Shown one piece after another: positions 9,873-54,194 of a stretch of 64,000 nucleotides of DNA. Positions within the stretch are counted from its first letter, which is position 1; every line of letters begins with the position of its first letter. The position numbers and the translations under genes are program-made. Below the pieces are notes generated by a model. It was not told where the DNA came from. It ran no database searches and saw only the letters and a list, made by a program, of their open reading frames with translations. The stretch covers positions 3,906,001 through 3,970,000 of the forward strand of contig NZ_CP014943.1 in assembly GCF_002077175.1 (NCBI RefSeq), in the 5' to 3' direction. The DNA is from Colwellia sp. PAMC 21821. GTDB taxonomy: Bacteria > Pseudomonadota > Gammaproteobacteria > Enterobacterales > Alteromonadaceae.

Positions 9873-10184
9873 ATGACACACAAAGTATTTAATGATTGCC
9901 AGTACCCCGTTGATAAAACAAACACCTTTGGTTTAGCTAAACCGCCATGTAATCGCTTGACTTACTTACATCAGGCATCCCTTTGTACGCACAGCGAAAT
10001 GGACCTCACACAACGTGATGAAGGCAGCGTCATCCAAGGCCACATTATTTCCCTTCACACGATACAGCTGATAAATCAGCTCATGCAAAACATAAAACTC
10101 ATCATGCCACTTGCTGATTTACCGCTACTTTGTAGTACATCACAGGCCATTATGGATAAGTTACTTAGCGGGTTATCCCAATGA
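9873..10184 (+). CDS. IS66 first-ORF accessory protein (tnpA position)
   Basis: A 103-residue protein in the first position of the IS66 element, where tnpA normally lies. Its start has a good ribosome site (ggag, 9 bases before ATG). Its stop TGA overlaps the ATG of tnpB in an ATGA junction, the usual coupling in IS66. The sequence does not show the helix-turn-helix I would expect in a classic IS66 TnpA; it has a Cys-rich N-terminal half and a hydrophobic helical C-terminal half (IQLINQLMQNIKLIMPLADL). Function unknown; it is called by position, reading frame and ribosome site. Confidence 0.65.
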   Translation: MTHKVFNDCQYPVDKTNTFGLAKPPCNRLTYLHQASLCTHSEMDLTQRDEGSVIQGHIISLHTIQLINQLMQNIKLIMPLADLPLLCSTSQAIMDKLLSGLSQ

Positions 10185-10531
10185 AAATGTTTGTTGATGT
10201 GCCAGAGGTCTATCTTTATCGTAACGTCGTTGATTTTAGAAAATCTATCAATGGCTTAGTCATGATTGTTGAACAACAAATGCAAGTATCACCGCTAACC
10301 GGCAGCGTCTTTGTGTTTTGCAATAAAGGGCGAGATAAACTTAAGGTGTTGTATTGGGATAAAACCGGTTTTGCTTTGTGGTATAAACGGCTTGAAAAAG
10401 ACAAGTTTAAATGGCCCAATAAACTTACTTCAACATCACTTGATTTATCTGAGCAGCAATTGCATTGGCTGTTTAACGGCTTTGATGTGCTGGGACATCA
10501 AGCTATTCGTTATGACACGGTTGCCTTATAA
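10181..10531 (+). CDS. tnpB: IS66 accessory protein TnpB
   Basis: A 116-residue IS66 Orf2-type protein. The family signature is clear: VYLYRNVVDFRKSINGL near the N-terminus, then GSVFVFCNKGRDKLKVLYWD and a FALWYKRLEKDKFKWP block. TnpB is needed for IS66 transposition although its exact role is not settled. It is coupled to the preceding small ORF by an ATGA overlap and followed by the transposase after 86 bases. Confidence 0.95.
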   Translation: MKMFVDVPEVYLYRNVVDFRKSINGLVMIVEQQMQVSPLTGSVFVFCNKGRDKLKVLYWDKTGFALWYKRLEKDKFKWPNKLTSTSLDLSEQQLHWLFNGFDVLGHQAIRYDTVAL

Positions 10532-10617
10532 CATGTGATCATAAGCAGCATTTATTGATCACGAAATAATCTTAATAAAGCCAACAAGTTAGTGTGATTT
10601 ATTGATAAAATAAGTCC

Positions 10618-12132
10618 ATGAATGATGACGCGCAATCCTTACCCAATAACATTGAACAGCTCAAAGCGATGCTGTTGGCTGAGCGTAAGCAATCAGCTAA
10701 CCAGGCCGCGAGATTGCAGTTTCTGGAGGAGCAGTTCCGCCTTGCTCAACAGCAACGCTTTGGTGTGCGAAGTGAAGGTCATCCTGCACAAGGTGATTTG
10801 TTTAATGAAGTCGAAGTCGTCCTTGATGAGGTTTTAGCAACGGTTGAGTCAACCCCTGCAGTTGTTAAGAAAAAACCGGTGAGACAAAAGCTCCCTAAAA
10901 CGCTTGAGCGTGAAATTATAATTCATGATTTAAGCGACACAGAAAAGACCTGTGACTGCTGTGGTGAGTCATTGCATCCTATGGGTGAATCGCGCAGTGA
11001 GAAGCTTGAGTTTATTCCGGCAAAAGTTAAAGTGATTGAGCATGTACGACTCAAATACAGTTGTCGAACATGTGAAAAAGAAGGTGTTAGCACGCACGTT
11101 AAAAGTGCACGTGTCCCTCTCAGCCCAATACCTAAAGGGTTTGCAACGCCGTCATTGTTAAGTCAAATCATCACCAGTAAATATCAATATGCATTGCCGC
11201 TTTATCGCCAAGAAAGCTTGTTTAAGCAATACGGTATTGCATTAAGCCGGCAGACGATGAGCGAGTGGATGATGAAATGCAGCGAACTATTTAAGCCGCT
11301 TTATGAACAGTTAAAGAAAACGCTCTTACAGCAATATGTTATTCAAGCGGATGAAACCACGCTTAACGTGATTAATGAAGATAAAGCTAAGTGCTATATG
11401 TGGCTCTACTGCACGGGCAGTGATACGCCTGTGCACAGTGATGTGCCTAATATTGTGCTTTTTGATTATCAATCTAGTCGTGCGGGGCAATGTCCGGTTG
11501 ATTATCTCAATGGATATACGGGCTATTTGCAAGTGGATGGCTATGCGGGTTATGAAAAAACGCAAGCAACCCTCGCGGGGTGTTGGGCACACGCGCGTCG
11601 AAAATTTAAAGAAGCAGACATCGCACAACCAAAAGGAAAAACAGGTAAGGCGAATATGGCGCTGAGCCATATTCAAAAGCTGTATCGATTAGAAACACAA
11701 ATAAAAGATAAAACGGCGCAGGAAAAGTATCAACAGCGCCAGGAAAAAGCTAAGCCTATACTCGTACAGTTTTATCAATGGTTAGAAAAAGCCAACGTGC
11801 CACCCAAAACAGCCTTAGGTAAGGCTATTCAATACTGTAAAAATCAACGCCATAAACTCAGTCGTTATATTGAAAATGGTGAGCTAAGTATCGACAATAA
11901 CCGTGCAGAGCGTGCCGTGAAACCGTTTGTGATTGGTCGAAAAAACTGGTTATTCTCAAACACCGCGAATGGCGCAAACACCAGTGCGATGCTTTACTCG
12001 ATGATAGAAACAGCAAAAGCGAATGATTTAGTCCCGTTTGATTATCTCATGCATTGCCTTGAGCAATTAACCAACTCAACACTCGACATTAACGCATTAT
12101 TACCTTGGAACGTAAAACTTAATAAAGTGTAG
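10618..12132 (+). CDS. tnpC: IS66 transposase (TnpC)
   Basis: A 504-residue DDE transposase. It has an N-terminal coiled-coil and leucine-rich segment (about 10-50), a zinc-finger-like CDCCGE ... CRTCEKEG region (about 120-160), and the DDE catalytic core, with Asp in IQADETTLN (near 243), Asp in LQVDGYAGY (near 306) and Glu in DNNRAERAVKPF (near 432). The C-terminal LPWNVKL tail is typical. Full length and intact. Confidence 0.96.
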   Translation: MNDDAQSLPNNIEQLKAMLLAERKQSANQAARLQFLEEQFRLAQQQRFGVRSEGHPAQGDLFNEVEVVLDEVLATVESTPAVVKKKPVRQKLPKTLEREIIIHDLSDTEKTCDCCGESLHPMGESRSEKLEFIPAKVKVIEHVRLKYSCRTCEKEGVSTHVKSARVPLSPIPKGFATPSLLSQIITSKYQYALPLYRQESLFKQYGIALSRQTMSEWMMKCSELFKPLYEQLKKTLLQQYVIQADETTLNVINEDKAKCYMWLYCTGSDTPVHSDVPNIVLFDYQSSRAGQCPVDYLNGYTGYLQVDGYAGYEKTQATLAGCWAHARRKFKEADIAQPKGKTGKANMALSHIQKLYRLETQIKDKTAQEKYQQRQEKAKPILVQFYQWLEKANVPPKTALGKAIQYCKNQRHKLSRYIENGELSIDNNRAERAVKPFVIGRKNWLFSNTANGANTSAMLYSMIETAKANDLVPFDYLMHCLEQLTNSTLDINALLPWNVKLNKV

Positions 12133-12858
12133 AGAAAGTTTGTGGGGGAAAACAGAGGAAATCATCCATGATCAACACTCCCTGTTTTATTCGTCCTTGT
12201 AGTGGCTCCATGCCACCGCACTTCATCCTGAAGTATCCATAACCCAGCATCCTGCTTGGTGTTGTTGCCAACACCAACAATACTAGAAGAATATAAATAT
12301 AATGCAAACCTGAGTACGATTTAAATTCAAGGTGTTCATTAGCCGACGCTCACACTTAATTATTTATTCCTCTAGTTGCTATTCATCCAGCAACATTCAT
12401 CTAGTGCCTATTAATATTTAGCCCAGGTGCGGTTTGATAAAAGTGTATAGCGAAATTACCAGCGAAAATATTAGCTAAATTATGTAGCTAATCTATGTTT
12501 TTGGTGGGGTTGTCTAATAGTATATGCTGTTCTGTATTTTAATTTTACTTGTTTCAACTCCATGTGATACAACATGATTTATACAAAAAATATTGTTCAC
12601 TAATACCAATTGAAATAAATAATCGATCATTTTAAGGCGGTTTAAATCGTCAATAACTGCGTTGTTTTCAATCACACACGCCCACTATTACTCGACAATT
12701 GCTCCTGCATTGTTCTACTTACGGGCATCCATGCCCTAATCAATCAAACGCCTTGCCTGCAGGGATAATGGTATGGACCCACTCCAACTTTATTTCAGGC
12801 CTCTTTAGGGCCAAAATGAAAGTGATAACAATCATTTATAAAAGCGGAGTGGATCAAC

Positions 12859-13875
12859 ATGAAGATTACTACAATCGGTTTAGACATTGCAAAATCAATT
12901 TTTCACATGTTCGCTGTGAATAAAAATGGGCGATTTGTAAAAAAGAAACAATTAAGAAGAAAACAAGTGTTGAGTTTCATGGCAACATTAGAGCCTTGCC
13001 TAATTGTAATGGAAGCTTGTGGCAGTGCGAACTACTGGGCTAGAAAATTTATTGAATTGGGGCACCAAGTAAAACTTATTGCGCCTCAATATGTAAAACC
13101 CTTCGTTAAAGGCAATAAAAATGATTATAACGATGCCGAAGGTATTGCAGAGGCAGCGCAACGCCCGACCATGAGGTTTGTGCCAATTAAATCGATAGAA
13201 CAACAAGATATTCAAAACTTCCATCGACAACGTGAACGCATAAAGAAAGAACGTAAAGCATTAGCAAGTCAGGTACGAGGCTTGTTAGGAGAATATGGCA
13301 TTGTCATCAATAAAGGTATTTCTGCAATTCGCAATGAACTGCCGGATATTTTAGAGGATGCGACAAATGAGTTAACGTATTTAAGTCGGGAGATATTTAA
13401 TGAGTTATGGCTTGAATTTCAAGTCACAGAAGTGAAGTTTAAAGCGTGTGAAGTTCGCTTAAACACGATGAATAAAGAAAATGAAATATGTGTTCGCTTA
13501 GATGAAATATTAGGTATTGGAGCAATCACAGCTAGCGCTACTTATGCAGCTGCAGGAGATGGAAAAGACTTTGTAAATGGTCGACATTTTTCGGCATGGC
13601 TTGGGCTTGTTCCTGGGCAGCATTCAACGGGTGGAAAGGCCACCTTACTCGGTATAAGTAAACGCGGTAATAGTTATTTAAGAACACTATACATCCACGG
13701 GGCCCGGGCAGTATTAAGGCACAGTGAAAACAAAACTGACCGATTTAGTTTGTGGGCACAAGCGTTAAAATCCCGACGAGGACACAACAAAGCATGCGTT
13801 GCTGTGGCGAATAAAATAGCAAGAATGGCTTGGGTAATAATGGCGAAGGGGGAAAGTTATCGCCCGGCTATATAA
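12859..13875 (+). CDS. IS110-family transposase (IS1111 type)
   Basis: A 338-residue DEDD transposase/recombinase. The N-terminal RuvC-like domain shows Asp in TIGLDIAKSIFHMFAV, Glu in IVMEACGSANYWAR, and the paired acidic residues in KNDYNDAEGIAEAAQRP. A coiled-coil linker runs about 110-200. The C-terminal Tnp_20 domain has the LGLVPGQHSTGGKATLLGI and KRGNSYLRTLYIHGAR blocks, including the conserved serine region. Enzymes of this family are guided by a structured RNA made from the element's own non-coding end. Intact, with a start supported by gcggagtggatcaac before the ATG. An upstream in-frame start in another frame at 12699 is not credible. Confidence 0.95.
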   Translation: MKITTIGLDIAKSIFHMFAVNKNGRFVKKKQLRRKQVLSFMATLEPCLIVMEACGSANYWARKFIELGHQVKLIAPQYVKPFVKGNKNDYNDAEGIAEAAQRPTMRFVPIKSIEQQDIQNFHRQRERIKKERKALASQVRGLLGEYGIVINKGISAIRNELPDILEDATNELTYLSREIFNELWLEFQVTEVKFKACEVRLNTMNKENEICVRLDEILGIGAITASATYAAAGDGKDFVNGRHFSAWLGLVPGQHSTGGKATLLGISKRGNSYLRTLYIHGARAVLRHSENKTDRFSLWAQALKSRRGHNKACVAVANKIARMAWVIMAKGESYRPAI

Positions 13876-14156
13876 ATAAAGCTCAAAACTGAAGCAAGTT
13901 AGATTGGTTTCAGTGATGAGATAACAGTAAAACCCTTTTACTTCAGTTGCAAAAGATAAATTAATCGGATGGTAAGATAGTCAGACTGGCTTGCACAAAA
14001 CCTGGTACCTGCATTGGCTAATAAAAAGCCGGAGGGATGATGAGGAGTGTGAGCGCAAACAACCATCGGGGCCAGAAGGTAAAAATCCTTCATAAACAGG
14101 CCGGATATATGAGAGCAATGATTTTCTCTTACATAACGATTAAATGTCTTGCAAAC
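13876..14156 (+). ncRNA. Candidate bridge/seek RNA of the IS1111-type element
   Basis: The 280-base region between the transposase stop and the right inverted repeat is where IS1111 elements encode their guide RNA. Seen: nested hairpins, ggct/agcc (14016-14019 with 14027-14030), gaagg/ccttc (14075-14079 with 14087-14091) inside an outer ggcc/ggcc (14070-14073 with 14099-14102). The ten bases gtacctgcat (14005-14014) are an exact reverse complement of atgcaggtac at the right junction (14172-14181), as a guide would be. RNA ends are not defined. Confidence 0.5.
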
Positions 14157-14267
14157 GGAGTGGGTCCATATATGCAGGTACTTATGTTTAGTCTGGAACA
14201 ATAAACATGTATTCTTGAACAATTTATCCTCGCTTAAAATTGGTCAATAACTTATTACATTTGGTAT

Positions 14268-15113: not shown

Positions 15114-18100
15114 ATGCAAAAGTCAAAGGTATTGGTTTCGGTACTGCTAGCATTATCATTCAATTCTGGTGTAACGCTAGCAGAAACTGTCGGCACGAAA
15201 GGTGAAACAGTATCTCAAAGAGATGGCACAACAGTTACCACCGCAGATCTTGTTAATAGGCTTTCCGGAAACGGTTTAACTATTACCAACCCCGTATTTT
15301 CAGGAGGTGATACTCAGGTAGGGGTGTTTGATAACTTTGGCTTTTTATTAGACCCAACAGGCGCTAATGATTTCTCCAGTGGTGTTATTCTCAGTACAGG
15401 CTCGGTAGAGCCTGTTGTGGCAACTGGGGGTAGTAATGACTTAGATAACCAAGGCTATGCTATTGCTCCTTCAGAGCCATTTGGTTCTCCAACAGACGAT
15501 CCAGATTTAGGGTCTGGGTATGATCACGCAAAGTTAACATTTACAGTTTTGCCAACATTCGATACCTTGATATTAGACTTTGTTTTTGGCTCAGATGAAT
15601 ATAATGAATATGTAAACTCAGGTTTTAATGACAAACTTCAAATTTTAGTTGGTGGAACAAATTGTGCGTTAACGCCAGATAATCAAGTGTTTAGTATTAA
15701 TACGGTCAATCGGTCAAGCGAGTACCAAGGTGAATTTAGAACCCAGACACTGCCATCCGAGAATCCAGAGTTATATATAAACAATGATCCAGGCCTTAAC
15801 GATAACGGCAATGAGGCGAGCACGGCAAACTTTGCCACCCAAATGGACGGTTTTACCAAAAGAGTGAGTTGTCGCGCAGCAGTAACACCTAATCAAGCTG
15901 TTAATGTAGTTGTCGGTATCTCAGATGATGGCGATGAAGGTTTAGATTCTTGGGCCTTCTTTAGAGCAAAAAGTTTACGTGCAGAGCCCGGTGGTGACTT
16001 AGGTGATGCACCAGATTCTTATCAAACGCTATTATCTTCATCTGGACCAAGCCATACTATTGTTGAAGGTGTGCATTTAGGTACTCAGCCTAGTGGTGAT
16101 GTTGATGGCTTTCGTGATGGTTTTGATGACAGTAGTGGCACAGCAAGAGATGATGTTGATGATGGTATTACTACTTTCCCTCAGTTAGACGACACCGATA
16201 CCACCTATGCTATAACAGCCAATGTAACTTCCTTTAATGGTCAACCTGCTTATATTGGTGCTTGGATAGATTTTGATGGCAATGGCTCATTTGAAGCTGA
16301 TGAGTTTACCAACCAGATATCAGACGCGGGCACTGTTGTTAATGAAGCCGCAGATGAAATTGCCGCAGGCACTTACGAAGAAGATATTACCATTACATGG
16401 AATATGATCCCAGCAGGCACTCAAATTGGTAATAGTTTTGCGCGTATTCGTATTTCTAATACACCTTTAACTTCTGGCGATTTTGGTGGCAGTTTTACCT
16501 CTGGTGAAGTTGAGGATTATGGTTTTGTTATTTCTGGTGCGGCAGATGCCACTGCACCAGTTGTAACGATTGACGATCCAACCTTAGTTACTGCAGCCGA
16601 TGATACCTCTTATGTTATATCAGGTACGTGTACTGTCGGAGACGGCGTAGTTACTGTTGTAGTAGATGATTTAGATGGTACACCTTCAGGGCTAACTAGC
16701 TCGCCTGTTTGTAATGCAGAAGGTGTTTGGACCGCTACTTTTAACGTTACTGGTATTGATAATGGCTTAGGACAAGTAATCATTAATGCCTCGCAAACCG
16801 ATAAAAATAGCAATTTAGGCAATGCAACACAAAAAGCAGCCGATAAAGACAGTACATCAGCAATAACACTGAATAATTTAATTAAGGTCACAACAGAAAA
16901 CCAATTTGCTTATGCAGTGAATGGCAGTTGTGTTGATGCCAATACCCCGGTAACAGTTTTAATCGCGGGTTTACCTGATAAAACCGCAGTATGTGCAGAC
17001 AATACTTGGCAAGCGACCTTTGATGTCAGTTCTATCGCAGATGGCACAGGGATAATTATTGCCGATGCCAATGATAGCTCAGGTAGTGCCGTGCAAAAAA
17101 ATGCAGATAAAGATACTACTGGTCCAGCCTTAACCTTGAACGTACCGTCAACAGCAAATTCGTCTAATCAGGCAAACTATACCGTAACTGGCATGTGTGA
17201 AAGTGCCGGCACGGATGTATCTGTATATATACCGGGTGCGTCGCCAGAGCGCCAACGAGTTACCTGTAATGTTGGAATGTGGACGGCAACGACCAACGTC
17301 ACAGCCATTACTGATGGTACTGATGTAATTACCGTATTTGTTGAGCAAGATGATTTAAGTGGCAATGGTTCAGCGGTTGATGATACTGCAAATAAAGATG
17401 TGGTAGTGCCGAGTGTTGTTATTAATGCCCTAACAGTAGGTAATAATGCCAATCAAAATAGCTACCCTGTAAATGGTACATGTACCAGTGGCGATGGTAA
17501 TGTTACCGTTGCTGTTGCTGGCGCTACACCTGCAAGCCAAGCAGTAAACTGTTCAGGGGCAGGTACTTGGACTTCAGCATTTAATGTTAGCGCGATTGCT
17601 GATGGCACTAACGTTATTGTAGCCGATGCAAACCAAACTGATACCGCGGGTAATACCGGTAATGCTACGCAGCAAAGTGCGAATAAAGATATTGTGCCGC
17701 CAACCGTGAGTATAAATACCTTAAACGATGCTAATGCCGCTAACGCTAGCACTTATGCCGTGAGTGGCAGTTGTTCGATTGGCGATGGTAATGTTAACGT
17801 GTTAATTGCCGGTGCAACGCCAGCTAATCAGCCTGTAAGTTGTTCCCCTGGCGGTACTTGGACAGCAACTTTTGATGTAAGTGCGATAGCCGACGGAACC
17901 AATGCAATTGTAGTTGATGCAAATCAAACCGATGCGGTAGGTAATACTGGAACGGCGACTCAAGCAACGACAGATAAAGATGTTGTGTCACCGAATGTTG
18001 TGATTAACGCACTCAATGATGCCAATGCGAGTAATTCATCGGCCTATGTGGTAACGGGTACATGTACGATAAATGACGGTAACGTCACCACTTCCATAGC

Positions 18101-19805
18101 TGGTGCAACACCGAGTACACAAGCGGTAGCCTGTTCTGCAGGTGGCGCTTGGACTGCGACTTTTAATGTTTCTGCAATCGCTGATGGTAGCAACACCATT
18201 ATTGCCGATGCAAATCAAACTGATGATTCAGGTAATAGCGATAATGCTGTGCAATTAATGGCCGATAAAGACACGGCTGTTCCAGTAGTGACGGTAGACC
18301 CTTTAATTGAGGTTAATGCCAGCAATGTTGCTACTTATCCTGTCACTGGTACCTGTACAGTAGGAGATGGCAATGTCGCTGTGATGTTAGCCGGAGCAAG
18401 TCCGACGAGTCAAAGTGTAGTGTGTAATCCAGACGGTACATGGAGCGCAACATTTGATGTCAGTGCGATTGCTGATGGTGAAGACAACATTGTTGTTAAC
18501 GCGAGCCAAACAGATGCGACGGGTAACACAACGACTACAGCTAACCAAGCAAGTGATAAAGATAGTACGCTGCCTGTTGTTGCAATTGATGCCTTAGAAG
18601 ATGGCAATATTGTAAATAAAACGAGCTACCCTGTAACCGGTACTTGTACTATTGGTGATGGGAATGTCACGGTCGAGCTTGCTGGGGCTTCGCCTGGCAG
18701 TCAAGCGGTGACTTGTAACCCTGATGGCACTTGGAATGCGACTTTCGATATAAGTGCAATAGCTGATGGCACTGGTGTTATTGTGGTTGATGGCAACCAA
18801 ACTGATTCATTTGGCAATATAGGCAATGCGACGCAGCTCACAGCAGATAAAGATGAAGACCAACCAATAGTCTCTATTTTAAATGCCCCTATGAGTGTCA
18901 CCAATACGGATCCTTTTGTTCTGACCTTTGAATTTAGCGAAGATGTTATGAACTTTGATTTAAGCGATATCGTATTTAGTAATTCAGCAGTAGCGAATTT
19001 TACCATCATCGATAACAACACTTACACAGTGGACGTAACACCCAATGGTGGTAATGTTAATATAAGTCTACTTGTTGGTGCTGCTCAAGATGCTACAGGT
19101 AACGATACCAACGCAACTGCAGTTGTGGTTATTTTCGATCAAGATAATGATGGCCTCAGTGATGAAGATGAAATAGCACTTGGGCTTGATCCTACCAGTA
19201 ATGATAGCGACAAAGACGGTATTCCTGATGGGGCTGAAGTGGGTGATGTTAATAACCCGACCGACAGTGACGGCGATGGCGTTATTGATGCAATTGACCC
19301 AGATGATGATAACGATGGTATAGCAACAGCAAATGAAGATGCTAACTTAGATGCCGACAACAACCCCTCTACAGGCATAACTGATAGTGATGGTGACGGT
19401 ATAGCTGACTATTTAGATACTGACTCAGATGGCGATAATATTACAGATGCGAATGAATCTGTGGCTACCGGCACTGATACCGACAATGACGGTATTGATG
19501 ATGCGATTGATGTTGATCAAACCGGCGGTGTTGATGCTAATGGTGATGGTGTTGATGACAATGTTGTTGCTGTTAATACCGATGGCGATACCGCACCTGA
19601 TTACCTAGATTTAGATAGTGATGGCGATGGTGTTCCTGATTACTGGGAGTCGGGCGCGTTAAATATCGATTCTGATATGGATGGCATTGATGATGCTTTT
19701 GATATTGATATTACTGGCGGCACAGACGCTAACGGTGATGGTATCGATGATAATACAACGCCCCGAACAGTGATGCTGACACAAAACCTGATTTTAAAGA
19801 TCTAG
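15114..19805 (+). CDS. Giant surface protein, N-terminal part (choice-of-anchor L, GEVED, Ig-like repeats)
   Basis: The first 1563 residues of what is probably one protein running to 23548. Order: signal peptide (1-23, ending LAE); a choice-of-anchor L domain (about 45-290; [18 protein letters not shown] is its hallmark); a GEVED domain (about 295-475; DLGDAPDSY to [10 protein letters not shown]); eight Ig-like repeats of about 96 residues (about 482-1250); one further Ig-like module with [15 protein letters not shown] (about 1252-1340); then the first thrombospondin type-3 Asp-rich repeats. The frame is lost at about residue 1550, after TTP, and the last 13 codons or so are out of frame. The protein would be a calcium-stabilised adhesin or surface-layer-like stalk. 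Its ribosome site is weak (aggtagg). Partner specificity unknown. Confidence 0.88.
16557..18863 (+). repeat. Eight tandem Ig-like repeats, about 288 bp each
   Basis: Protein-level repeats with the pattern YxVTGTCTxGDGNVTV ... [13 protein letters not shown] ... ADGTN ... ANQTD ... GNATQ ... DKD. The first three are diverged; copies 4-8 are close to one another. Each has two conserved Cys, in GTC and in VxC, about 25 residues apart, a likely disulfide. Similar extracellular Ig-like repeats mediate adhesion. Confidence 0.88.
19761..19764 (+). other. Frameshift site: one base missing in a C homopolymer
   Basis: Reading acg ccc cga leads to a stop at 19803-19805. Adding one C to the cccc run gives [18 protein letters not shown], which aligns with the neighbouring repeat boundary [18 protein letters not shown] and continues open for 3.8 kb. 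Hence one base is missing, in the cell or only in the assembly. Confidence 0.9.
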
Positions 19806-51662: not shown

Positions 51663-51850
51663 TCAGCAGTACGATTGACTCTCACTAAAACCGTATATGG
51701 TATAAATATAAAAGTGATCAAGTTTGAACAAATAGATAATTTGGTTAATACCGTTATCTTTAGCTTAAGTTATAGTAATAACAGCATAATTTATCGTGCA
51801 TGAAGGTTTTTCCCCTGTACTTTTTAAAAAATATTGTTAGTATGCATAAC

Positions 51851-51955
51851 GAGCCAAGGGGTGCCTGAAAATCGTATACGATTTTAAAGGCTGAGATGCG
51901 AAGCGAACCCTTAGAACCTGAACCGGATAGTACCGGCGTAGGAATGGTTAAGCTA
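51851..51955 (+). promoter_or_regulatory. TPP riboswitch (THI element)
   Basis: The conserved parts appear in order: caaggggtgcc, then ggctgagatg, cgaacccttagaacctga, and ccggatagtaccggcgtagga. A variable P3 hairpin (aatcgtatacgatt) lies between the first two. It lies 134 bases before the TonB-dependent receptor start, so thiamine pyrophosphate should repress the downstream unit. The expression platform is not clear; a possible tagcatta/taatgcta stem lies near 51974-52010 but lacks a T run. Confidence 0.95.
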
Positions 51956-52088
51956 ATCGCATTACCGCTCTGTAGCATTATATTTTCAGCACTTTTGCTT
52001 TAATGCTATAGATTGTTACCGAACAGCTATCTAACTTCCCCCATGCCGGATCCCATAACATATTCTTAATCGAATTTATGAGATCATA

Positions 52089-54194
52089 ATGAAATTTATA
52101 AAATCACCTGTAGCTTTGGCTATTTTTACTAGTATTGTTACACCAACAATTTTTGCCGCTGACACGTCATCAAATACCGCATCTAAAACCGTAGAGCAAG
52201 CTACGGAAGTTATCACTGTTAATGGCGACTTTCGCACGAGTTCACTACAAAAAACTGCAAGTTCTTTATCTGTTATCGCTAGTGATGAAATTAGCGCGCG
52301 TAACGCACAGAACTTAGAAGAGATCATTGCACGTGCACCCAATATAAATTTTTCTAGTGGTACTCAACGTGCTAGATATTATCAAATTCGTGGTATTGGT
52401 GAGCGTAGCCAATTTAAAGAGCCAATTAATCCATCTGTTGGTTTAGTGATTGACGGCATAGACTTTTCAAGCATAGGTAGCATAGCGTCAACGTTTGATG
52501 TTGAACAAGTCGAAGTTTATCGTGGTCCTCAAGGAACACGCTTTGGTGCTAATGCCATGGCTGGAATGATAAATATTACTTCCAGTGCACCTACCGACAC
52601 TTTTGAGGGTAAAGTCAAATTATCTGCGGGAAATTACGACAGCTATAGCGCCGGTTTGGTGTTGTCTGGTCCCGCAACCGAAAAGGTAAATTATCGCATA
52701 GCGGTTGAACAGTTCAGTAGTGATGGTTTTATTGAAAATGATTCTCTAAATAGTGACGACACTAATAATCGTGATGAATTAACCTTGCGTGGCAAGTTAG
52801 CGATTAAGGCAAGTAATGACTTAACTATTGACTTAACCGCGTTTGTGGCTGATTTTGATAATGGCTATGATGCCTTCTCACTTGCTAATACTCGCCATAC
52901 CTTATCAGATCAACCAGGTTTTGATCGCCAAGACACCAAAGCGTTAGCGGCTAAATTTACCTATCGCGGTTTTAATGATTTTACAGTTGAAAGTATTATT
53001 AGCTATGCTGATTCAGCACTGGACTACGGCTATGATGAAGATTGGGCCTATGTGGGTATTCGTCCAGGATGGGAATATAGTTCAGAAGATCACTACTTTC
53101 GTGATAAGTCATCATCAACACTGGAGTTAAGAGCCGTATCAGAGCTTGGCGGAGAAATTTTTAATAACACGACAGCTTGGATAACAGGATTATACTTCAA
53201 GCAAGAGAAAGAAGATTTATTGCGCCAATACACTTATTTGCCTAGCGATTTTACATCAAGTTTTGATACCGATAATATTGCTGCATTCGTTCAATTTGAC
53301 ACTCAACTTAACCATAAATTAAGCCTGACGACAGGGTTAAGGGTGGAGCGCAGAAATTCAGATTACGCCGATGCAGAACAACTTAGTTTTGATCCTAGCG
53401 ATACTATGGTTGGTGGTAAAGTGGTGTTGTCATTCCAAATGGACGACAATAATTTATTTTATGGCTCGGTTAATCGAGGTTATAAAGCCGGTGGCGCCAA
53501 TACTGATGGTAGTTTACCCGCTAACCTACGTGAGTTTACGCCTGAATACCTATGGAATTATGAATTAGGCTATAAAGTCAGTCTATTGGATAATCAAGCT
53601 TATGTTCGAAGTGCCATATTTTATATGGATAGAGACGACATGCAGGTACGTACGTCTTATTTAGAAGAGCGTCAAGACGGCAGTACAGATTTTGTTTCAT
53701 ATTTAGGCAATGCCGCTACTGGCAGTAATCTAGGTCTTGAATTAGAAGCAGGTTGGCAAATTACCCCTAAACTTGAAATATACGGTGCGTTAGGGCTGCT
53801 AGATACTGAATATAAAGGTTTTATTGCCGCTGATGGCAGCGATAAGTCAGGTGACGAACAAGCGCATGCACCTAGTTATCAGTTTAATCTCGGTTTAAAT
53901 TATCAATTATCGGATCATTTGTTAGTAAATATTTCGGTTGATGGTAAAGACGAATTCTTGTTTTCTGATACTCATCAAGAAAAGTCAGAGTCAATTGAAG
54001 TCGTGAATATGTCTATTAGTTATGTCAAAGATGATTGGCAAGTGAAGCTATGGGCGCGTAATTTATTTGATGAAACCTACGCTACTCGTGGCTTTTATTT
54101 TGGCAATGACCCACGAGACGAATACACAGCCAAAGCCTATTATCAATTAGCCGAACCCGCTGTGTTTGGTGCTACTTTTGACTATGATTTTTAG
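52089..54194 (+). CDS. TonB-dependent receptor, probably for thiamine
   Basis: Outer-membrane TonB-gated transporter, 701 residues. Signal peptide (1-23, ending IFAAD), a TonB-box region near EVITVNG, the plug domain (about 50-165; ARAPNINFSSGTQRARYYQIRGIG, RGPQGTRFGANAMAGMINI), then the 22-strand barrel ending in the terminal aromatic FDYDF. The family alone would not give the substrate. The TPP riboswitch just upstream, and the thiamine-type genes downstream, make thiamine or a precursor the likely ligand, as for the TPP-regulated receptors noted in earlier comparative work. There is a copy of the dispersed repeat between it and the next gene. Confidence 0.88.
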   Translation: MKFIKSPVALAIFTSIVTPTIFAADTSSNTASKTVEQATEVITVNGDFRTSSLQKTASSLSVIASDEISARNAQNLEEIIARAPNINFSSGTQRARYYQIRGIGERSQFKEPINPSVGLVIDGIDFSSIGSIASTFDVEQVEVYRGPQGTRFGANAMAGMINITSSAPTDTFEGKVKLSAGNYDSYSAGLVLSGPATEKVNYRIAVEQFSSDGFIENDSLNSDDTNNRDELTLRGKLAIKASNDLTIDLTAFVADFDNGYDAFSLANTRHTLSDQPGFDRQDTKALAAKFTYRGFNDFTVESIISYADSALDYGYDEDWAYVGIRPGWEYSSEDHYFRDKSSSTLELRAVSELGGEIFNNTTAWITGLYFKQEKEDLLRQYTYLPSDFTSSFDTDNIAAFVQFDTQLNHKLSLTTGLRVERRNSDYADAEQLSFDPSDTMVGGKVVLSFQMDDNNLFYGSVNRGYKAGGANTDGSLPANLREFTPEYLWNYELGYKVSLLDNQAYVRSAIFYMDRDDMQVRTSYLEERQDGSTDFVSYLGNAATGSNLGLELEAGWQITPKLEIYGALGLLDTEYKGFIAADGSDKSGDEQAHAPSYQFNLGLNYQLSDHLLVNISVDGKDEFLFSDTHQEKSESIEVVNMSISYVKDDWQVKLWARNLFDETYATRGFYFGNDPRDEYTAKAYYQLAEPAVFGATFDYDF

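Follow-up and report, generated by a model that had tools for sequence, protein, structure and literature searches.

Covariation with target and donor DNA points to a four-guide RNA in the 3' non-coding end of an IS1111-group insertion sequence of Colwellia sp. PAMC 21821

The insertion sequence and its target

The window, here the whole analysed stretch of 64,000 nucleotides from Colwellia sp. PAMC 21821, contains an intact insertion sequence on the forward strand at 12766-14172, with a length of 1407 bp in the 7/3-bp convention. Its transposase gene (12859..13875, +) encodes 338 aa with the domains DEDD_Tnp_IS110 and Transposase_20, as identified with Pfam and NCBIfam profiles (PF01548, 63.5 bits; PF02371, 75.6 bits; NF033542, 345 bits), and the 338-aa frame is present in all 25 complete copies of the element in the genome. 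The left end is made up of the terminal extension TAATGGT (12766..12772, +) and the subterminal inverted repeat ATGGACCCACTCC (12773..12785, +), the right end of the subterminal inverted repeat GGAGTGGGTCCAT (14157..14169, +) and the terminal extension ATA (14170..14172, +). The repeat is 13 bp long and perfect, and the 7-bp and 3-bp extensions agree with the empty sites described below. The IS1111 group is defined in PMC11187229 by subterminal inverted repeats of 11-13 bp with a 7-bp left and a 3-bp right extension. Non-coding DNA amounts to 297 bp 3' of the stop codon versus 93 bp 5' of the gene, and insertion is sequence-specific without added bases, the left and right flanks joining into the empty site. 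By its domains, its repeats, the length of its 3' non-coding end and its clean insertion, the element is a member of the IS110 family, IS1111 group. Two neighbouring genes (116 and 504 aa) at 10181-12132 of the window look like genes of an IS66-type insertion sequence, and a repeat-rich open frame of 1563 aa, adhesin-like by eye, directly follows the element at 15114-19805.

The element interrupts a MITE-like repeat, of which the left part (12603..12765, +) ends in CCTGCAGGGA and the right part (14173..14267, +) starts with TGCAGGTAC and ends in TTGGTAT. The outer ends were placed by alignment of empty copies of the repeat, row L030 being left out, and the window copy without the element measures 258 bp by coordinates and repeat ends. 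The repeat is dispersed, with many copies in the genome, unique TA-rich surroundings and imperfect inverted ends (ATACCAA..TTGGTAT). In addition to the 25 complete copies of the element there is one truncated copy (L026), and pattern scans of the whole genome counted 26 left junctions, 25 right junctions and 25 guide regions. The same hairpin of the repeat hosts 24 of the 25 complete copies, the remaining one (L025) lying in the variant hairpin GCATGGA^TGCAGG, and the orientation is identical in 25/25.

Eleven perfect empty sites were found, all reading GCCTGCAGGGA^TGCAGGTAC. The 14-mer AGGGATGCAGGTAC, which spans both target guides described below, has 11 uninterrupted chromosomal occurrences, identical with the 11 empty sites, and six further ones with one mismatch. 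Because the empty sites place the insertion point, the ends can be set at 12766 and 14172 with the 7-bp and 3-bp extensions. The cut lies between 14172 and 14173 in the IS1111 convention, in agreement with all 11 empty sites, and 14173-14181 is therefore target flank; a first-pass annotation of this DNA had called the boundary uncertain and the target and donor roles inseparable, a point that the empty sites settle. The A at 14172 is the same base as the last of the left flank (the core), and for the core A and T at the two sides an origin from the element or from the target is indistinguishable by sequence alone.

Some copies of the repeat carry possible traces of lost elements. Two repeats at unrelated loci (L049 and L050; G000 815719-815738 and 3059642-3059661) have the identical scar GGGATAATGGTAC, which looks like loss of the element between two GGTA motifs. 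Comparison of the 3020-bp loci found only the 269-bp repeat region in common, and the shared scar would reflect either later movement of a scarred repeat or the same deletion occurring twice. At L030 (G000 508383-508518), an empty site has an additional AT (GGGATATGCAGG), perhaps an excision footprint or slippage.

Comparison set and tests

Relatives of the element were collected, and their ends were assigned from the repeat in combination with the 7/3 rule, not from empty sites. The repeat pair had to have the form ATG...CAT, as an inverted-repeat scan without this requirement misplaced the ends of several loci; the sample is biased towards elements with subterminal repeats of this form. The first set started from 142 inputs, of which 12 had no repeat pair, leaving 130. 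Eight were excluded by hand (L163 as a duplicate; L063, L071, L082, L125, L142, L168 and L176 for implausible ends) and the remaining 122 formed 87 clusters, from which four were removed (L097 and L100 with an unaligned guide region, and two loci with N runs). Of the resulting 83 elements, three had no flank for the right-target test and two none for the left-target test, giving n=80, 81, 83 and 83 for the right-target, left-target, right-end and left-end tests, respectively.

A held-out set of 28 loci was reduced to 15, as 12 had no repeat pair and L193 was dropped for having the same RNA as L192; the first alignment served as the template for aligning this set, and the genomes of the two sets overlap taxonomically. 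Per-base tests used 96 elements (L209 and L214 dropped, RNA incomplete in the alignment), and fold and promoter analyses 95, with L219 also removed. The permutation tests leave relatedness in; it is addressed by the tests on close pairs, for which distances were computed on the RNA without the guide slots. When 31 excluded loci were re-examined, eight were flagged as cut by contig ends and, apart from L211, L215 and L220, the others had no clear ends. At L211 and L220 plausible ends were present, but a right-end segment of the form sought was not found. The ends of L215 lay beyond the range of the first scan, and the right end ACA plus T of this locus is fitted by its CCGGATACAT.

Target guides

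The first-pass annotation pointed to a ten-base match between the 3' non-coding end and the right junction of the element, which is confirmed in the sequence: GTACCTGCAT at 14005-14014 (+) has its exact reverse complement at 14172-14181. This 10-mer occurs three times in the window (both strands counted) versus 0.10 expected. The third copy, at 53640-53649, was set aside as chance, nothing in a 401-base context being recognisably related to the repeat. In 20,000 shuffles of the non-coding end, a match to one of the 10-mers of 14171-14184, on either strand, arose 49 times. The segment (14005..14014, +) is a target guide for the right flank, top strand, and not a donor guide, because it is the right flank that it matches and only core bases are shared with the element. 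Of the two roles between which the first reading had left the choice, that of target guide thus stands and that of donor guide falls, on the evidence of the empty sites and the relatives. A second segment, AGGGATG (14033..14039, +), absent from that annotation, matches the left flank and is therefore able to pair with its bottom strand as the target guide for that side. A small hairpin of the consensus fold (14016..14030, +) separates the two guides, whose order is top-strand match (14005-14014) 5' of bottom-strand match (14033-14039), with overlap at the cut.

Within the genome the guides are nearly constant. The right-target guide context is exact in 24 of the 25 complete copies, the left-target and right-end contexts in 25 each, and the left-end context in 22, with the five guide bases themselves unchanged in 25/25. 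In L023, the sole copy with an altered target guide, C is replaced by T, which as U is still able to pair with G. Covariation of guide and flank could not appear inside this one genome, because 24 of the 25 complete copies share one target hairpin and the 25th lies in a close variant.

Relatives with 37-80% identical transposases sit at different targets, and among them both target guides change with the flanks. Scored over its best 8 bases, the right-target slot paired with its own flank at a mean of 7.26 against 5.98 permuted (n=80 non-redundant elements), with 66/80 elements scoring 7 or 8 of 8 and 14/80 merely 5 or 6; for the left-target slot the mean was 5.47 of 6 against 4.49 permuted (n=81 non-redundant). 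The held-out elements (n=15) gave 7.00 versus 5.63 for the right-target and 5.47 versus 4.42 for the left-target slot, and in each of these tests 0/10,000 permutations reached the observed value. In disjoint close pairs with different flanks, the right-target slot fitted its own flank better in 29 cases and the swapped flank in 3, with 8 ties; for the left-target slot the counts were 31, 0 and 5. Loop bases covarying with flanks, which the first-pass annotation had named as the pattern to look for, are thus seen among relatives at different targets, and the match is not kept unchanged at unrelated targets, which it had named as the opposing case: the slot changes with the target.

Among these relatives, L062, L067 and L076 have the flanks AAT^TGGTATTA or GAT^TGGTATTA and are inserted at TTGGTATTA or ATTGGTATTA, sites that resemble the end of this repeat type, with TAATACCAA as the matching segment. 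The sequence TTCAATTGGTATTA in L062 is identical to the end of a repeat of the MITE-like target's type, and this suggests that the lineage may have switched to another part of such repeats. L054 and L055, from MAGs labelled Colwellia and Oceanospirillaceae, agree in flanks, ends and transposase identity, owing to either recent transfer or a binning error.

Proposed donor guides

Two further segments are proposed as donor guides. ATATAT (14105..14110, +) equals in sequence the right end plus core (14168-14172 and 12766), which comprise the final two bases of the repeat, the 3 bp of the right extension and base 1 of the left end. Its mean score was 5.90 of 6 against 4.92 permuted (n=83) and 5.27 against 4.36 in the held-out set (n=15), both with 0/10,000 permutations reaching the observed value, and in 26 disjoint close pairs with different DNA the own combination was better in 23 and the swapped one in none, with 3 ties. 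Bases 1, 2 and 3 of the right extension are identical to the RNA in 95, 96 and 95 of 96 elements (permuted 0.75, 0.59 and 0.97); base 3 varies little, and 226/10,000 permutations reach its observed agreement. The core base is identical to the RNA segment in 89/96 elements (permuted 0.56). It is unlike between left end and right flank in 13/94 elements, and the RNA mismatches the left-end core base in 7/94.

The other proposed donor guide, ACCAT (14062..14066, +), is complementary to ATGGT of the left end (12768-12772), which are left-end bases 3-7. The mean was 5.20 versus 4.82 permuted (n=83; 0/10,000 reach) and 4.93 versus 4.72 in the held-out set (n=15; 312/10,000 reach), and 33 disjoint close pairs with different DNA gave 15 own, 1 swapped and 17 ties. 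Pairing of left-end base 6 was 0.94 against 0.62 permuted and that of base 7 0.89 against 0.52, while bases 3-5 are nearly invariant and hence uninformative. For base 2, pairing (0.33) was below the permuted value (0.38), and for base 1 it was not above it (1,558/10,000 permutations reach); an extension of the guide in which RNA 14067-14068 would pair with left-end bases 1-2 was unsupported per base against permutation and was dropped. RNA 14063 also pairs inside the RNA (80/96). RNA 14062 pairs with left-end base 7 in 77/88 elements versus 25/88 with its RNA partner, so that the RNA helix does not account for the pairing of base 7. Taken together, the covariation supports putative guides for both donor ends, for the left end less, and the left-end guide would be the weakest of the four.

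RNA structure and predicted promoter

The structured guide RNA region extends over 13947..14118 (+), with a closing helix of 13947-13950/14115-14118. RNAalifold on 95 sequences gave an energy of -53.3 kcal/mol compared to -1.7 (sd 1.57, lowest -6.6) in 60 column shuffles. In the consensus fold the two target guides lie on opposite sides of an internal loop, and the helix that closes this loop has the 5' arm 13989..13996 (+) and the 3' arm 14047..14054 (+). All four Watson-Crick pairs are found at 7/8 positions of this helix, and its pairing is 0.80 versus 0.35-0.45 for slid partners. A stem-loop on the donor side (14070..14102, +) consists of 14070-14073/14099-14102 and an inner hairpin. The several hairpins reported around the match in the first-pass annotation thus correspond to a consensus fold with covariation surrounding the site, and its proposal of an IS1111-type element with a guide RNA predicted in the 3' non-coding end gains support. 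No Rfam family reached its gathering score in the guide RNA region; the only Rfam match in the window is a TPP riboswitch elsewhere, at 51847-51961 (69.5 bits).

Joining of the element ends in a circle would give TTGCAA, 16 bp and TATAAT. TTGCAA (14149..14154, +) would be the -35 box of a promoter formed in this way, and the -10 box TATAAT would combine 14171-14172 with 12766-12769, the TAAT of the left extension. Such a circle-junction promoter, with both boxes having at least 4/6 bases, is predicted in 78/95 elements versus 0.8% of shuffles.

Discussion

With the insertion point fixed, the guides matching the DNA, and two target and two donor segments covarying with it in a covarying fold, the RNA looks like a four-guide bridge RNA, and we consider it very likely that an RNA of the 3' non-coding end guides the DEDD transposase, bridging donor circle and target with four guides. 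The structured RNA encoded in this end would be transcribed from the circle-junction promoter and form a complex with the transposase. The GTACCTGCAT segment would read the right flank (top strand) and AGGGATG the left flank (bottom strand), while ACCAU would pair with the left extension (top strand) and AUAUAU with the right extension and core (bottom strand) of the joined circle ends. The donor circle and the target would in this way be bridged by the RNA, with a presumed part for the donor segments in the recombination, and recombination at the shared core would lead to insertion at one place and in one orientation.

The donor guides may be dispensable, because an ISEc11 mini-element was moved by an 82-nt seekRNA, described by its target matches, at 42% versus about 15% with the long form (PMC11187229). 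Such an RNA being enough for ISEc11, and the left-end segment pairing within the RNA as well, one could suppose that the RNA reads the target only, that the transposase alone recognises the ends via the subterminal repeats, and that the donor-like segments are structural or leftover. We hold this to be unlikely: the right-end segment follows the extension bases by identity in 95, 96 and 95 of 96 elements, an agreement that does not stem from pairing inside the RNA because it is identity and not complementarity; 23 of 26 close pairs favour their own right end and none the reverse; and left-end base 7 follows the RNA, not the RNA helix.

Recognition of a hairpin or cruciform by the protein, with an incidental RNA match, is suggested by the palindromic target (CCTGCA..TGCAGG) and by the likewise palindromic targets of some relatives, such as L057, L074 and L083. 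It appears very improbable, as the guides change with the flanks in close relatives (29:3 and 31:0), and the one orientation of all 25 complete copies in a near-palindrome is explained by an RNA with unequal guides. We give least credence of all to a donor guide, or mere coincidence, as the explanation of the ten bases. Under the 7/3 convention the element ends with the A at 14172, and the match thus does include one core base in common with the donor, but the remaining nine bases are target flank, shuffling reproduces such a match in only 49/20,000 trials and the slot varies with the target among relatives.

Comparison with known systems draws on excerpts of PMC11187229, PMC11208160 and PMC11208158. 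For IS1111 elements the target guides have been shown, with the top-strand match 5' of the bottom-strand match in the seekRNAs, while the domain that binds the ends of the element is stated as not known (PMC11187229). The present element resembles ISEc11, ISPa11 and ISKpn4 in its 3' non-coding RNA, guide order, target overlap and subterminal repeats with 7/3-bp extensions (PMC11187229). It shares a circle-junction promoter, predicted here, with ISEc11, for which one is published (figure legend in PMC11187229), and a potentially folded target site with ISPa11 and ISKpn4 (PMC11187229). It differs from these three in that its target is a hairpin of a MITE-like repeat, and covariation with the donor ends is not among the results in the excerpts of PMC11187229.

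Two target guides, a shared core and a DEDD recombinase are features in common with IS621 and the IS110-group bridge RNA, and the two proposed donor guides would be a further one (PMC11208160, PMC11208158). The element differs from IS621 in the position of its RNA 3' of the gene, in its long subterminal repeats, in a reversed order of the target guides and in a proposed left-end donor guide that is partly within a helix (PMC11208160, PMC11208158). Bridge RNAs were predicted in 93.0% of IS1111 elements (PMC11208160), and the same work proposed donor pairing from six manually inspected elements, three in each group. For the inspected IS1111 bridge RNAs donor-pairing nucleotides were likewise proposed, there often in a multiloop (PMC11208160, legends of Fig. 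6 and Extended Data Fig. 10); six elements were judged by eye in that work, whereas covariation over at most 98 elements was used here. Among the matches listed for open-licence PMC papers, none reported donor-guide covariation in IS1111 by its title or abstract opening, which is weak evidence of absence.

IS4321/IS5075, with a 39% identical transposase, has the same RNA layout, its segment AAAACGGAA matching the flank TTCCGTTTT. The donor side of IS4321 fits as well, with a right-end segment that matches AGA and a left-end segment CTCAT that matches ATGAG. The target of IS4321/IS5075 is, by the title of a cited reference, the terminal repeats of Tn21-type elements.

While the target guides of IS1111 are already known, the donor-guide covariation is the newer, testable part, and over at most 98 natural elements it points to RNA positions and DNA bases that can be tested. 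In general, IS1111 guide RNAs are probably complete four-guide bridge RNAs, and the 7-bp and 3-bp extensions outside the subterminal repeats would then be the donor as read by the RNA, doubling as the -10 box of the circle-junction promoter. The element of Colwellia sp. PAMC 21821 would owe its spread to the reading of a hairpin within a MITE-like repeat and, if the proposal is true, RNA could set both the donor and the target of IS1111 systems.
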